From: Chryseobacterium culicis
GTDB lineage: Bacteria; Bacteroidota; Bacteroidia; Flavobacteriales; Weeksellaceae
Direction: 5' to 3'
NCBI RefSeq assembly: GCF_002979755.1
Contig: NZ_PCPP01000002.1
Coordinates: 434,001-498,000, forward strand
Length of the DNA stretch: 64,000 bases
Of the stretch, positions 26,824-33,129 are shown one piece after another. Under the pieces are notes generated by a model. That model saw only the letters and a program-made list of their open reading frames with translations, did no database searches and was not told the origin of the DNA. Every line of letters starts with the position of its first letter. The stretch's first letter is position 1. Both the position numbers and the translations under genes were made by a program.

Positions 26824-26860
26824 TAACTCCCAGCTTCATTCTTCCAGTTTCCAGCCTTTA
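26824..26860 (-). repeat. 37-bp intergenic repeat ending at the TonB receptor stop codon
   Basis: Shares 32 of 37 positions with 33905-33941, and its last three bases form the stop codon of the minus-strand receptor gene, exactly as in the other copy. Confidence 0.6.
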
Positions 26861-29563
26861 AAACGTCACATCCAGTCCTACATAGAAGTTTGCCTTCATA
26901 ATTGGAGCGTATACCATTCCTCCGTCAAAATAATTTCCGAAAGGATTTTTAAAATCAACAATCGCATTTTTCTGATAATAAGAAGTCAGGTTTTCACCTC
27001 CTACGTAAGCTCTGATCTTTTTATTGAAATTTTTTGAAATCTGAGCATTCAGAACGGCATAAGATTCAGAATAGGTTGCTAACTGAAACTCTGCCGGATT
27101 ACTTGATGTATCAGGAAGTCTCTGTTTTCCAACCCAGTTTAAAGTCGTATCAAAGCTCCAGAATCCTCCTTTATCATTCTTATTGGTTGAATAGGCTAAA
27201 TTCACAAAACCTCTGTGTTTTGCCATAAAAGGAACTTCTCTTCTTCCACCGATATAATCAGCCTGCACATCATAATACTTATAAGCAAGTCTTACATCAA
27301 AGTTTTTGAAAGGAGTGAAATCCCACTGAGTCTGGAATGAATTTGCAAATGATTTTCCTTCCAGATTATAGAATGTCAGCTGCTGTGGAGATTTGTCTAA
27401 ATCTACCAATACCTGATCCTGAAAATCTGTTCTGAAGAAGTCGGCAACAATGCTGGATTTTCTTCCGAATAATTTGAATTCCTGTTGTAAGCTTACACCA
27501 TAGTTCCATGCAATTTCAGGTTTTAAGCCATAAATATTTCCTCCGTTGGGTAAAATATTAATCGCTCTGTTTGATGCAAAATACTGCTGGCTTTCCGCAA
27601 ATACATTGGCTGTTCTGAACCCTCTTCCTGCAGAAAGTCTTACAATAGTCTGAGGGGTAAAATCATACTTGAAATTAAGCCTTGGCGTAAACTGAGTCCC
27701 TGCCAGATTATGAAAATCTACTCTGGAACCTGCTACTAAAGTATATTTTAACCCTGTTAAAGTATACTCAGCAAAAATTCCCGGTACAATTTCATTTCTT
27801 CTCATATCATCTATCAAATAGGTTTCTTTATAACCGTCATATAAGAAACTTGCTCCTGCTTTATACTTATGATTGGTATTTCCGATGATACTTTCAAAAA
27901 TTAGATTGGAGTAATAGGTGTGCTGCTGCCCCGCATAATTTCTCAATCCGAAGAAACTATCCTGCTGATGATAAACGTACTGGTTCATCCAGCCGATACT
28001 TTGATAAGGTTTTCCTTTAAAAACATATCCTGTTTTATTCCACACCTGAAATCTTGAGATGTCAATTCCTACCCCATAAAAAGGTTGTTTGTCCTGCGCT
28101 AATTTTTTATCAAAACCAACCTGTCCTGCTGTTCTTTCATCTCGGATAAAATTAATTCCGAAGTGAGACCCGAATCCTGATTTTTCAAGGTCATTATAAT
28201 TCAGCAAATAAGCGGCATTGATCTGTGTTCCTTTCGGTCTGTCCAGGAAACCATCATGATTCATATCCGTATTCCCGAAAGTTCCGTTTCCGTGAAGAAG
28301 GAAAGTCTGAGACCATTTATCGTTGATAGGAGAAACATTGGTAATATTTACTTCAGCTCTTCCATTGAAATCGGAGAAAAGATTTAGTGAAGTTTCCGGA
28401 GTTTTTGCATTCTTTAAAAGTTCAGTATTAATCTGTCCTGTGATGCTTTCATAACCATTCGTTACAGTGCTTCCTCCCTTAGTAAGCTGGATACTTTCAA
28501 TCCACCTTCCCGGAATAAAATTTAAACCATAGGCAGAAGCCAGACCCCTGATTTCAGGTAACTGTTCTTTCGTTAAGCTGGTATATTTCTGATCCAGACC
28601 AAGCATTTTCAGTTGTTTTGTTCCCGTAACGGCATTGCTGAAAGAAACATCCACAGTTGCGTTGGTTTCAAAACTTTCAGACAGATTACAACAAGCTGCC
28701 TTTAACAACTCTTTTTTATCAATATTAAAAACAAGTCCTGCTTCTTTCTTGCTTAAAGCCGTCGCTGCCTTGGAACCTGTTACTACAACTCCGTCAATGC
28801 TTTTTTCATGCTGAGAGTGATCTTCTTTCGTTGATGAAGCCTCATTGTCTTTATGATCTTCATGTTTGGTTTCTTCTTCATAATGTACCTTTGGATTCGG
28901 TTCACCAAAAGTAAACTCCCTGTCATACAGGCAACATCCCGGAAGTCCATTATAAACAGCATCTGAAGCTTTGTATTTTTCATTGTCATGACCAGCATCA
29001 GCAATTGCTTTTAAAATTTTATCTGATGAGGTTTTTGAAGGGTCAAAATTCAGTGTAACCGTTTGTTTCTCTGCATTCCATTCTGCAGCATTGGCACCGG
29101 CATCTTTTGACGCTTTTTCTATTCTGGCTTTACATGAAGCACAGTTTCCTCTTACGTAGAACTCATTTTCTTTTTTTGTAGAAGCCGTAGTGCTTGTAGG
29201 GTGCTCATGATGAGACTCTGCCTGCGATGGCTGAAGATCTCTGTCATAATGACAACACCCCGGAAGCCCTTCATAGGTTGTGTCAGATGCTTTGAATTTT
29301 TCATTATCATGACCTGCTTCAGCTACTTTTTTCAGAATATCATCCGTGGATACTTTATCTGTCTCTAACGTCAGTGTCTGAAGATCGATAGAGTAAACTG
29401 CTGTTTTTGCGCCTGCTTTTTTAGCTGCACTTTCAATTCTTGTTTGGCACATTTCACAGTTTCCCTTTACCTTGAACTGGGTTTTTGAAAGTGTCTGAGC
29501 AGATATAAATTGTGTAAATAGGAATAATGCACCAAGTATAAACCTGGAAATAGGTAATTTCAT
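26858..29563 (-). CDS. TonB-dependent receptor with two N-terminal HMA domains (copper-related)
   Basis: A 901-residue outer-membrane receptor. After the signal peptide (1-22) come two heavy-metal-associated domains, with Cys36/Cys39 (KGNCEMCQTRIE) and Cys141/Cys144 (RGNCASCKARIE). Each is followed by GHDNEK and a GLPGCC segment (Cys103-104, Cys210-211). Then a His/Glu-rich linker (about 228-253), TonB box DGVVVTGSK, a plug containing another CC (AACCNLSESFE), and the beta-barrel ending in LDVTF. HMA domains bind Cu(I) or similar soft metals, so metal capture or sensing tied to transport is inferred. It is last in a three-gene minus-strand group with two other metal-ligand-rich proteins. Confidence 0.92.
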   Translation of the reverse strand: MKLPISRFILGALFLFTQFISAQTLSKTQFKVKGNCEMCQTRIESAAKKAGAKTAVYSIDLQTLTLETDKVSTDDILKKVAEAGHDNEKFKASDTTYEGLPGCCHYDRDLQPSQAESHHEHPTSTTASTKKENEFYVRGNCASCKARIEKASKDAGANAAEWNAEKQTVTLNFDPSKTSSDKILKAIADAGHDNEKYKASDAVYNGLPGCCLYDREFTFGEPNPKVHYEEETKHEDHKDNEASSTKEDHSQHEKSIDGVVVTGSKAATALSKKEAGLVFNIDKKELLKAACCNLSESFETNATVDVSFSNAVTGTKQLKMLGLDQKYTSLTKEQLPEIRGLASAYGLNFIPGRWIESIQLTKGGSTVTNGYESITGQINTELLKNAKTPETSLNLFSDFNGRAEVNITNVSPINDKWSQTFLLHGNGTFGNTDMNHDGFLDRPKGTQINAAYLLNYNDLEKSGFGSHFGINFIRDERTAGQVGFDKKLAQDKQPFYGVGIDISRFQVWNKTGYVFKGKPYQSIGWMNQYVYHQQDSFFGLRNYAGQQHTYYSNLIFESIIGNTNHKYKAGASFLYDGYKETYLIDDMRRNEIVPGIFAEYTLTGLKYTLVAGSRVDFHNLAGTQFTPRLNFKYDFTPQTIVRLSAGRGFRTANVFAESQQYFASNRAINILPNGGNIYGLKPEIAWNYGVSLQQEFKLFGRKSSIVADFFRTDFQDQVLVDLDKSPQQLTFYNLEGKSFANSFQTQWDFTPFKNFDVRLAYKYYDVQADYIGGRREVPFMAKHRGFVNLAYSTNKNDKGGFWSFDTTLNWVGKQRLPDTSSNPAEFQLATYSESYAVLNAQISKNFNKKIRAYVGGENLTSYYQKNAIVDFKNPFGNYFDGGMVYAPIMKANFYVGLDVTF

Positions 29564-29632
29564 TTTGTTTAAAAGTTTAAATTAATTAAAAAACAGCTCA
29601 TTACATAGTATAATGAACTCGTGATATTTTAA

Positions 29633-29995
29633 TTAACCTATCTTAGGCGGTTGCCAGATTTCCTTTAAACGGTCTGAAAGATATGGATCTGAATATTGAA
29701 ACTGAGGATTCTTATTCGCTTTGTAATAAGACAGTTCCAAACGTAGATTTTTTGAGAAAGGCGTTTCAATAAAAGTATAGCAGGCAACGCATGATGAACA
29801 GCAGTCATCATTACATGATTTTGTTTTATCATGTTGGCTGTCTTTTTTTGAAGAATGATTTTTGCAGCAGTCCATTTTCTTGGAAGATTCTGCTTTACAG
29901 CATGTTTCCTGCATTCCTTGTGCATAGAAGTTATCCTTGGGAATCAAAAAGATTCCCAGGCAAAACACTATTGCAAGTATGTGAAACAGCTTCAT
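29633..29995 (-). CDS. Small Cys-rich exported protein of the copper locus
   Basis: A 120-residue protein with signal peptide (1-26) and a mature part carrying nine cysteines as CC, CC, C, CC, C, C pairs within a Lys/His-rich segment, then a C-terminal half ending WQPPKIG. The CC pairs and terminal PPK recall the flavobacterial HYC_CC_PP group often encoded beside metal-related TonB receptors, though the HYC motif is missing. Start at 29995 is chosen for the signal peptide. It lies 69 nt before the HMA receptor gene. A periplasmic or surface metal-binding role is inference. Confidence 0.78.
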   Translation of the reverse strand: MKLFHILAIVFCLGIFLIPKDNFYAQGMQETCCKAESSKKMDCCKNHSSKKDSQHDKTKSCNDDCCSSCVACYTFIETPFSKNLRLELSYYKANKNPQFQYSDPYLSDRLKEIWQPPKIG

Positions 29996-30014
29996 ATCTG
30001 CAAAAATACAAAAT

Positions 30015-30665
30015 TTATGGTAAAGGATCACCAACTTTTAGAGAACAGCTGTGCCAAGGCTCGCCATGTGCCGGATTCAGTTTGGGTTTTTCACCCATTG
30101 CCAGATTCTGTGCAGCTGGTGCGGGAGCAGGCGCTGGTGTTGTCTGAATTACATTTTGTGTAGCTTGTGGAGTTGGAGCAGGTTTACTGTTTAAAGGCTG
30201 TCCTACCGGAATATCACAGCGGTGTCCCGGTTGCCCGTGAGGAGGATTCATTCCGGGAGCTGTTTTTACCTGTTTCCCGTTGTTATCAAGGGTAATTTTC
30301 CCTGGAGATACTGCATTAGGATCAATTTGAATGGTGTTGGCTCCATTCACGTTTACATTCTGTGTAGTGGGAGTAGCTCCTGCAGGTTTACTGTTCAGCG
30401 GTTGTCCTACCGGAATATCGCATCGGTGGCCAGGTTGTCCGTGTGGAGGATTCATTCCGGGAGCTGTAGCCATCGGAGCAGGGGCAGGGCTGGATTGGAT
30501 GCCTGTCTGATCCATCAGGGCCGTTTTTGAGGAGGTATTAAGTGCCACGTTGGGCTGGCCAGCGTTGGCTTCTTCTTTTAAATAAGTAGCTCTTTCATCC
30601 TTTTTACAAGAGGCAGCTAGTAGTGATACGGCGATCAAACCTATAAATGTATTCTTCATATCCAT
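30015..30665 (-). CDS. Lipoprotein with repeated NPPHGQPGHRCDIPVG motifs
   Basis: A 216-residue lipoprotein (lipobox LLAASC, Cys20) followed by a Pro/Ala-rich chain holding two near-identical copies of PGMNPPHGQPGHRCDIPVGQP and a third diverged C-terminal copy, LNPAHGEPWHSCSLKVGDP. Each copy has two His and one Cys, a plausible soft-metal site. The first two DNA copies lie 204 bp apart. It starts the group that continues with the Cys-rich protein and HMA receptor, 19 nt apart. An ATG at 30659 is an alternative start. Metal binding is inference. Confidence 0.83.
   Translation of the reverse strand: MDMKNTFIGLIAVSLLAASCKKDERATYLKEEANAGQPNVALNTSSKTALMDQTGIQSSPAPAPMATAPGMNPPHGQPGHRCDIPVGQPLNSKPAGATPTTQNVNVNGANTIQIDPNAVSPGKITLDNNGKQVKTAPGMNPPHGQPGHRCDIPVGQPLNSKPAPTPQATQNVIQTTPAPAPAPAAQNLAMGEKPKLNPAHGEPWHSCSLKVGDPLP
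30178..30470 (-). repeat. Two direct coding repeats in the lipoprotein gene
   Basis: Units of about 88 bp beginning at 30178 and 30382 (offset 204 bp, 68 codons) encode near-identical peptides but differ at several third codon positions, so the duplication is not recent. Confidence 0.7.
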
Positions 30666-30737
30666 GGGTATGAAACAAAATTAGCAAAACATTTTCAATT
30701 GTTTTGCTAATTTTATACTTATAATTTGATTTTTGGA

Positions 30738-31424
30738 TTAATTTTTTACCAAAAGTCTAAATCCTTCTCCGTGAACGTTGATAATTTCCAATCCTTCGTC
30801 GTCTTTTAATAATTTACGAAGCTTCGCAATATATACGTCCATACTTCTTGCGGTGAAGTAATTTTCTTTTTTCCAGATCTTTCTTAAAGCAAGATCTCTC
30901 GGCATGAAATCATTTCTATGGATGCAAAGAAGTTTTAATAATTCATTTTCTTTAGGAGAAAGTTTGTATTCTTTATCACCTACTTTCAGCTGTCTCAACA
31001 TAGAGTCGAAGAAAATATTGCTGATTTTGAATTGCTCCTGCTCCTCATTTTCCAATGTAGAACTTCTCTGAAGAATCGCTTTGATTTTGTACAAAAGAAG
31101 TTCAGTATCAAATGGCTTTGTGATATAATCATCAGCGCCCAGCTGATATCCTTTCAAAATGTCTTCTCTCATATTTCTTGCTGTAAGGAATATGATGGGT
31201 GTATTTTTATCAATCTTTTTTACATCTTCCGCTAATGAAAACCCATCTTTTTTAGGCATCATTACGTCAAATATGCAGATATCGAATTCATTTTCTGTAA
31301 ATTCTTTAAGTCCCTGCTCCCCATCAGTGGCAAGAGTTACTTCAAAATTATTGATGGTCAAATAATCTTTAAGCACCGCCCCGAAACTCTGATCGTCCTC
31401 TACTAATAATATTCTGTTGCTCAT
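30738..31424 (-). CDS. OmpR/PhoB-type response regulator
   Basis: A 228-residue regulator: receiver domain (about 4-118) with acidic pocket EDD (10-11), phospho-acceptor Asp53 in IFDVMMPKKDG and Lys in YITKPF; then a winged-helix OmpR domain (about 130-226; SPKENELLKLLCIHRNDFM, DVYIAKLRKLL). It pairs with the histidine kinase gene 160 nt upstream and resembles the RprY group of Bacteroidota. The lipoprotein gene of the copper locus begins 72 nt downstream on the same strand, so read-through is possible; a regulatory link is not shown. Confidence 0.92.
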   Translation of the reverse strand: MSNRILLVEDDQSFGAVLKDYLTINNFEVTLATDGEQGLKEFTENEFDICIFDVMMPKKDGFSLAEDVKKIDKNTPIIFLTARNMREDILKGYQLGADDYITKPFDTELLLYKIKAILQRSSTLENEEQEQFKISNIFFDSMLRQLKVGDKEYKLSPKENELLKLLCIHRNDFMPRDLALRKIWKKENYFTARSMDVYIAKLRKLLKDDEGLEIINVHGEGFRLLVKN

Positions 31425-31584
31425 AACTTTTAATAATTAATAATTAACATTAAGAATGAACTTCCTCACTCTATCTTCTATATTTTGATATTTGGTTTAA
31501 CCTTTTTTATAATTGATGAATGATAAATGATAGTTGATCTGAAAGGAATTATTTTATCATTTATCGCTTATCATTTATATATTT

Positions 31585-33129
31585 CTAACCCATCGGCAGT
31601 TTTATCGTAAACGTACTTCCTTTTCCTTTATGAGAATCTACGATAATCTGTCCTTTGTGCAGTTCTACAATTTTCTTAACGTAGGAAAGACCTAATCCCT
31701 GTCCTTTTACGTTGTGAATATTTCCGGTTTCTTCTCTGAAGAATTTTTCGAAAATTTTGGTTTTATTCTGGGTGTCCATTCCCATTCCTTTGTCGGAAAT
31801 TTCAATGATATACCAGTGTCCCTCATTTTTTGTTTCCACATGTATTTCCGGTGCTTCAGGAGAATATTTATTGGCATTGTCCAGTAAGTTGACCAGCATA
31901 TTCGAGATGTGGAACTCGTCTATTTTGAAATTATAATGAGTGGCATTGAATTTCTGAGTAAGAGAACCGTTTCTTTGCTGTACAATCAGATTGAAAGATT
32001 CGGTTGTTCTTTTGATCAATTCCCTTACATTGGTTTCTTTTAAGAATAATTCTACTTCATTCCTTTCAAGCTTAGACATATTGAGTACGTTTTCCACCTG
32101 CTTTTTCATCCTTAAGTTCTCCTGCTTAATCAGTTCGGAGTAATATTTTACCTTATCCGGATTGGTTGCGATTTTGTCATTAGCTAATGAATCCGTAGCT
32201 ACAGAAATGGTTGCCAATGGTGTTTTAAACTCATGGGACATATTGTTGATGAAGTCTGTTTTTACTTCAGCAAGTTTCTTCTGCCTCATCATATAATTGA
32301 TGGAAATAATGTAAATCCCAAGAATCGTAAGAAGAGATAGGAATGTTCCCAGAAGCATGGGCCAGTTGTTCATCGCAAGAGAATACTCTTTTTTAGGGAA
32401 GACTAATGCGAGGCTGTATAACGTATTTTTCTTATCGGCAAAAAGAGGAAAGCTGTAGGTATTGCTGTCTTTTTTCTCTTTGTAAGCCTTATTGGCAATG
32501 CTTGTAAGCTTATTGTTACTGTCCAGAACTCCATATCCGAATTTGGCCGTTATACCTCGTATTTTAAGTTCTTTTGCAATAACAGAGTCCAGCGTTTTCG
32601 GATCCACTCTTTTAGTAATAGGAAGGTTGTTTCCATATACTTTGACGAATTCTTTCATGGAGTAATCTCCTGTCTCAATTTCCTGATTGATATCTTGGGT
32701 TAGAAGTTCGCGATTGGTGGTGTCTCTTTTTATTTTATAGGCAGCTTCATCTGTATATAAAGTGGTCAGCTTAATAGAATCTCCTTTTTGGGAAATGGGA
32801 AGCTGTGTTTTTTCAATAATATTTTTAGAATAGATAATCTGTCTCTGAGTACCGGAATCCTCCACCTGCTGGATGGTGGTTAAAGATGGCTGTTTGCTGT
32901 TGGCAAGAATATTTTTCCTGAAATCTTTATAATCCTGATTCAGGTATTTGTCAGCCTCAATTTCTTCAATACTTTTTGAAGTACTTTCCAAAACTGCATA
33001 CACTTTATTTGAAAAATCCTGTTCCAGTACGCCGTAATAGCCTTTCAACCAATAAAATTGGAGCGTTACAAAGACAATCAGTGAGATCGTCATAAACACT
33101 GAAATTATTGGGATGAATTTGTTATTCAT
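31585..33129 (-). CDS. Sensor histidine kinase
   Basis: A 514-residue membrane kinase: transmembrane helix (about 7-29), a periplasmic domain of about 225 residues without recognised fold, second helix (about 257-279), HisKA domain with phospho-acceptor His299 in NNMSHEFKTPLA, and a HATPase_c domain with N-box LVNLLDNANKYS and G-boxes ISDKGMG and GQGLGLS. It resembles RprX-type kinases paired with RprY. The gap to the regulator gene contains repeated TTATCATTTA motifs able to form a hairpin (about 31515-31577). Confidence 0.92.
   Translation of the reverse strand: MNNKFIPIISVFMTISLIVFVTLQFYWLKGYYGVLEQDFSNKVYAVLESTSKSIEEIEADKYLNQDYKDFRKNILANSKQPSLTTIQQVEDSGTQRQIIYSKNIIEKTQLPISQKGDSIKLTTLYTDEAAYKIKRDTTNRELLTQDINQEIETGDYSMKEFVKVYGNNLPITKRVDPKTLDSVIAKELKIRGITAKFGYGVLDSNNKLTSIANKAYKEKKDSNTYSFPLFADKKNTLYSLALVFPKKEYSLAMNNWPMLLGTFLSLLTILGIYIISINYMMRQKKLAEVKTDFINNMSHEFKTPLATISVATDSLANDKIATNPDKVKYYSELIKQENLRMKKQVENVLNMSKLERNEVELFLKETNVRELIKRTTESFNLIVQQRNGSLTQKFNATHYNFKIDEFHISNMLVNLLDNANKYSPEAPEIHVETKNEGHWYIIEISDKGMGMDTQNKTKIFEKFFREETGNIHNVKGQGLGLSYVKKIVELHKGQIIVDSHKGKGSTFTIKLPMG

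Follow-up and report, generated by a model that had tools for sequence, protein, structure and literature searches.

How copper is handed over once it has crossed the outer membrane is poorly known, and a receptor fused to a putative acceptor would make this step directly testable. Such a receptor is encoded in a 64,000-nucleotide stretch of the Chryseobacterium culicis genome (contig NZ_PCPP01000002.1, positions 434,001 to 498,000; hereafter the window), together with a lipoprotein and a small Cys-rich protein. Do these three proteins form a periplasm-facing copper relay, as an earlier note on the window had proposed? Our comparison with related loci points to another arrangement, a copper importer that carries its own periplasmic acceptor and is preceded by a copper-sensing leader. 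As a whole, we regard this reading as evenly poised between right and wrong, and we place greater confidence in the copper link taken alone. All three genes were found where the earlier note had placed them, on the minus strand, with the lipoprotein first, then the Cys-rich protein and then the receptor:

26858..29563, minus strand: TonB-dependent receptor with an N-terminal HMA-HMA extension, 901 amino acids (Pfam, AlphaFold model, Foldseek)
29633..29995, minus strand: Cys-rich exported small protein, 120 amino acids from the ATG at 29995 (position, alignment with HYC_CC_PP)
30015..30665, minus strand: lipoprotein-like protein with three HGxPxHxC repeats, an optional neighbour (sequence, locus comparison)

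Domain structure of the receptor

The following elements were assigned within the receptor:

29240..29485, minus strand: HMA-like repeat 1 (residues 27-108) with CEMC and LPGCCHYDR (homology to repeat 2, predicted HMA fold)
28913..29170, minus strand: HMA repeat 2 (residues 132-217) with CASC and LPGCCLYDR (PF00403, predicted fold)
28799..28912, minus strand: His/Glu-rich linker, residues 218-255 (sequence; predicted local distance difference test score, pLDDT, below 50 at 227-264)
28775..28795, minus strand: TonB-box-like DGVVVTG, residues 257-263 (assigned from position and similarity)
28688..28693, minus strand: plug Cys-Cys pair C291-C292 in KAACCNLSESFETN (invariant in two orthologue alignments)

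Two HMA domains, each with a CxxC motif and a GLPGCC segment, had been claimed for the extension, and two HMA-type repeats are present, with CEMC at residue 36, CASC at residue 141 and GLPGCC at residues 99 and 206. Repeat 2 alone passed the Pfam cut-off (PF00403, 40.0 bits against 24.8), and repeat 1 was not reported. Repeat 1 shares 56% identity with repeat 2 over 86 residues, and it is from this homology and its predicted fold that it is classed as HMA-like. When the pair was modelled alone with AlphaFold, two HMA folds were predicted (pLDDT 80.8), and their best solved matches were the HMA pair of B. subtilis CopA, ATP7B and CopZ, with a CopZ/Atx1 match. Only three HMA matches were found by Pfam in the whole genome.

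The remainder of the protein is a TonB-dependent receptor. Pfam identified the barrel at 96.4 bits (PF00593, cut-off 27) and scored the plug at 19.5 bits, under the cut-off of 23.9 (PF07715), which orthologues exceeded; the plug region was also aligned in the fold matches. The AlphaFold model displayed a standard plug and barrel with a mean pLDDT of 79.1, falling below 50 in the linkers and in plug parts 289-297, 302-324 and 343-351, and solved TonB receptors aligned with it over both plug and barrel in Foldseek. The nearest named receptors, from C. sediminis and C. panacisoli, are 95% identical. All ten cysteines of the receptor occur in five pairs, namely the two CxxC, two CC and the plug CC at 291-292, and CC was found at this plug site in 120 of 120 receptor orthologues.

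An HMA unit accompanies the receptor across Bacteroidota

At the thresholds used, a receptor orthologue was detected in 52 of 60 sampled genomes of the family and in 68 of 296 genomes of the phylum. Among 120 Bacteroidota receptor loci, 117 had an HMA unit fused to the receptor and/or adjacent to it (fused only, 49; adjacent only, 63; both, five; neither, three), and in the unfused relatives the unit is encoded as a separate exported protein near the receptor. Separate genes in some lineages and a single protein in others are a classical sign of cooperating proteins. A metal-linked, periplasm-facing function of the HMA pair is the part of the proposed relay that is supported, the pair lying before the TonB-box-like segment and having adjacent HMA counterparts in the unfused relatives.

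The fusion arose at least twice, independently. A quick tree of the receptor core placed the fused forms in two separate groups: Weeksellaceae, whose fused receptors carry between one and three HMA units, and Sphingobacteriaceae/Chitinophagaceae, in which the HMA unit mostly stands ahead of the usual CarboxypepD-like domain. Two changes were needed on this tree, and a single origin was rejected when all fused forms were held in one clade (approximately unbiased test, p-AU 4e-46).

Eight Flavobacteriaceae/Pedobacter loci encode an HMA domain fused to a small membrane protein, a combination not present at the window locus; this HMA-membrane protein beside the receptor is a candidate inner-membrane partner. 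By eye, its membrane part is MauE-like, and the fusion stands at -1 of the receptor in L073, L151, L167, L175, L177, L179 and L180 and at +1 in L157.

The Cys-rich protein resembles a regulatory leader

In 29 of 29 related loci, the direct neighbour of the receptor is a Cys-rich protein whose C-terminus consists of PPK and a few further residues; because it is kept in all of them, the pairing of the two genes is not due to chance. In 113 loci overall, the receptor is preceded by a Cys-rich gene, which either adjoins it or is separated from it by one or two genes (usually the HMA gene), and the median distance from leader to next gene is 75 nucleotides. In families other than Weeksellaceae, this position is taken by proteins of the HYC_CC_PP family (NCBI NF047658), which passed the cut-off of the NF047658 model; the window protein aligns with HYC_CC_PP at CC and PP. 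Among open-licence papers, none was found on HYC_CC_PP, on the HMA-receptor fusion or on experiments with the latter.

The exported Cys proteins CruR and CutF, which both bear a terminal PP, detect copper during their synthesis and regulate the gene that follows (PMC9426467, PMC9973294); in CruR, CXXC and RAPP are 45 residues apart, a distance conserved within one or two (PMC9426467). The window protein has a hydrophobic N-terminus, recognized as an export signal by eye and by a simple pattern, and ten cysteines in total, the nine of the earlier note being those after the signal peptide. Its CVAC is followed by 43 residues and then by PP at 116-117, a CxxC-to-PP offset of 44. Under rules for CutF-like proteins (shorter than 150 amino acids, PP in the last 15 residues, an N-terminal export signal and a same-strand gene within 1000 nucleotides), it counts as CutF-like, with 120 residues, that PP and the receptor gene 69 nucleotides downstream. 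Among 20 non-redundant Weeksellaceae leaders, selected so that the last 40 residues of their spacers differed by over 40%, 18 have an offset of 42-46 (17 at 44-46 and one at 42) and two have no CxxC. Four dissimilar spacers of the same length share 23% identity on average. Constant length combined with changing sequence is better suited to a distance along a nascent chain than to a folded metal carrier. Most HYC_CC_PP proteins have a CC-to-PP distance of 55-60. Judged on these sequence features, the Cys-rich protein fits a CutF/CruR-type regulatory leader better than a relay carrier.

The gap between leader and receptor genes contains one further element:

29595..29619, minus strand: hairpin with a T-run behind it (fold z -3.47, covariation)

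Across 12 Chryseobacterium-type sequences, 90.7% of the cells were paired and five pairs had changed on both sides, compared with at most two double-sided changes in slid controls. No Rfam elements were found near the locus. Upstream of the leader in 45 Flavobacteriaceae receptor loci, two conserved genes were observed that are exosortase-like by eye.

Relatives of the leader lie in copper-efflux surroundings

Since the receptor loci are not beside copper genes, the metal has to be traced through members of the leader family and the HMA units. HYC_CC_PP paralogues located elsewhere in the same genomes were examined in 48 loci for markers within ~7 kb. A resistance-nodulation-division (RND) pump was near in 38 of the 48, and at least one heavy-metal-efflux or copper marker in 42; the best PDB match of the pump was CusA. 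In the window's own genome, a relative of the Cys-rich protein (30% identical) belongs to a copper-type cluster that also includes a multicopper oxidase. Copper, the metal that the earlier note had named, is thus the best-supported one, through association.

Could the same architecture instead serve another soft metal (silver, mercury, zinc or cadmium) or a metal complex? We think this unlikely. HMA and CxxC are not metal-specific, and the fold matches of the HMA pair also include MerP and the zinc ATPase domains, with ZiaA and ZntA among them. However, the Met triad of the CusA copper site, a Cu/Ag site, is kept in 26 of the 28 long RND pumps near HYC_CC_PP paralogues, and multicopper oxidases and DUF3347 proteins lie beside some of these paralogues.

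Membership of the receptor loci in efflux clusters was rejected, as the marker scan was positive in only 2 of 120, and COX1 (PF00115), present in 285 of 296 genomes, was uninformative as a marker of copper need. The copper-type cluster of the own genome (L009:7300-14838) encodes a Cys-rich PPKIG protein, an HMA-DUF3347 protein, the multicopper oxidase, a DUF3347 lipoprotein, a haem-binding protein and a TonB receptor. Small fusions of an HMA-like and an AraC-type DNA-binding domain were also seen near copper ATPase or CusA-type genes (L004:9319-9879, L189:5985-6563 and L191:9702-10286).

The lipoprotein and other neighbours

The repeats described for the lipoprotein were recovered as two exact PPHGQPGHRCDIPVG copies and a diverged third copy, PAHGEPWHSC. 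Its motif occurred in 20 of 296 genomes, from four genera, and 26 Weeksellaceae loci had its gene close to that of the receptor, which it could precede or follow. Linkage to the receptor was seen in Weeksellaceae only; in Flavobacterium the gene lies among unrelated genes, from which context the lipoprotein as an obligate part was rejected. It is an optional neighbour, and its place in the relay finds no support.

That the trio is nevertheless a physical relay, in which HMA pair, Cys-rich protein and His/Cys lipoprotein hand copper along the periplasm, seems to us improbable. Three adjacent proteins, each with potential metal ligands, would suit it, but the spacer of the Cys-rich protein keeps its length and not its sequence, this protein ends in PP, and the lipoprotein is missing from most receptor loci and unlinked in Flavobacterium. 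No better placed is a sensing or gating role for the HMA extension, of the kind that the STN domain has in FecA/FpvA, where it likewise lies N-terminal to the TonB box, since no extracytoplasmic function (ECF) sigma or anti-sigma gene was seen adjoining the receptor, the separate exported HMA protein of unfused relatives suits a carrier, and a two-component system is linked to the receptor in part of Weeksellaceae only.

In the window, such a system lies upstream at 30738-33129, with an RprY-like response regulator (below its cut-off) and a histidine kinase. Downstream of the receptor in Weeksellaceae (for example in L092 and L094), a methionine sulfoxide reductase B-like gene is frequent on the opposite strand. 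The lipoprotein gene is preceded by:

30681..30710, minus strand: perfect inverted repeat that overlaps a promoter-like element, TAnnTTTG (sequence)

As a regulon-wide operator this repeat was rejected, because a genome-wide search that allowed up to 3 mismatches found no second copy. Hairpins of differing sequence occupy the same place in other genera.

Discussion

We propose that the receptor most probably imports copper, in ionic or chelated form, in a TonB-dependent manner, the inward direction being suggested by the receptor class and by the parallel with CruR-CrtA. Once released through the plug, the metal would be taken over in the periplasm by the receptor's own N-terminal HMA units, through their CxxC and LPGCC cysteines, a hand-over suggested by the position of these units; the plug Cys-Cys pair may lie on the way. 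The Cys-rich protein would be a leader and no carrier. During its export, it would sample periplasmic copper with its CxxC, which would alter ribosome arrest at its terminal PP, and this arrest would in turn set receptor expression through the intergenic hairpin; arrest, its release and the role of the hairpin are what we infer.

Several observations weigh against this reading. On the receptor side, the OprC copper motif CxxxM-HxM was not found at the plug, where the sole cysteines, C291-C292, are followed by NLSE with no Met at +4, and the HMA CxxC occurs also in Hg, Zn and Cd proteins. The 2 of 120 receptor loci positive for copper or efflux markers count here too, with the proviso that as a background for the paralogues these loci represent related genomes, not random windows. 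As for the leader, the window protein gave no match to NF047658 (cut-off 28 bits), its alignment with HYC_CC_PP is weak (25% mean column identity), no DUF2946 (PF11162) match was found in the own genome, so that membership in this family was rejected, and the context of its PP is WQPPK, not RAPP. Finally, leader gaps fold only modestly better than other gaps (mean z -2.67 versus -2.04, significance untested), and covariation of the hairpin was assessed within Chryseobacterium only.

More tentatively still, the locus may represent a phylum-wide copper-import module, in which a metallochaperone was twice fused to the periplasmic end of the receptor so that transported copper is never free, and in which expression is governed by a nascent-chain copper sensor whose PP motif, not of the RAPP type, stands at a fixed distance from its CxxC; we rate this somewhat below an even chance.

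Comparison with known systems

The copper receptor OprC/NosA (PMC8610252) has the TonB-dependent fold in common with the window receptor, and OprC is among its fold matches, but the HMA extension and the CC plug motif belong to the window receptor. With the tandem HMA domains of CopA/ATP7B, the HMA pair shares the predicted fold and CxxC; it differs in lying on the periplasmic side of an outer-membrane receptor and in the extra LPGCC behind each domain. The window leader and HYC_CC_PP (NF047658) share gene position, CC and PP motifs and export, whereas the window protein is undetected by the model, is without HYC and has another spacer.

In the CutF-CutO system of Rhodobacter capsulatus, as in the window, a short exported Cys protein with a terminal PP is followed by a short gap with a hairpin (PMC9973294), but where CutF precedes a multicopper oxidase gene, the window leader precedes that of a receptor. 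The same authors listed Bacteroidota among the sources of CutF-like proteins, and TonB-like proteins among the neighbours of these (PMC9973294), whereas a recent survey reported copper-related RAPP/RGPP leaders to be lacking in Bacteroidota (PMC12992588).

In CruR-BfrG/CrtA of Bordetella pertussis, the receptor is a copper importer whose expression falls in response to copper (PMC9426467, PMC12914433). No PepSY_TM gene, a neighbour of CrtA, was noticed among the window neighbours, although no search was aimed at PepSY. CrtA is without conserved Cys, in contrast to the plug CC of the window receptor, which also has HMA units; the window leader has no DUF2946 match and WQPPK in place of RAPP. 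In both operons, nonetheless, an exported small protein whose CxxC and C-terminal PP have a spacing of about 45 immediately precedes a TonB-dependent receptor. If our reading is true, the leader extends the range of copper-sensing nascent chains to Bacteroidota, in a form whose arrest motif differs.

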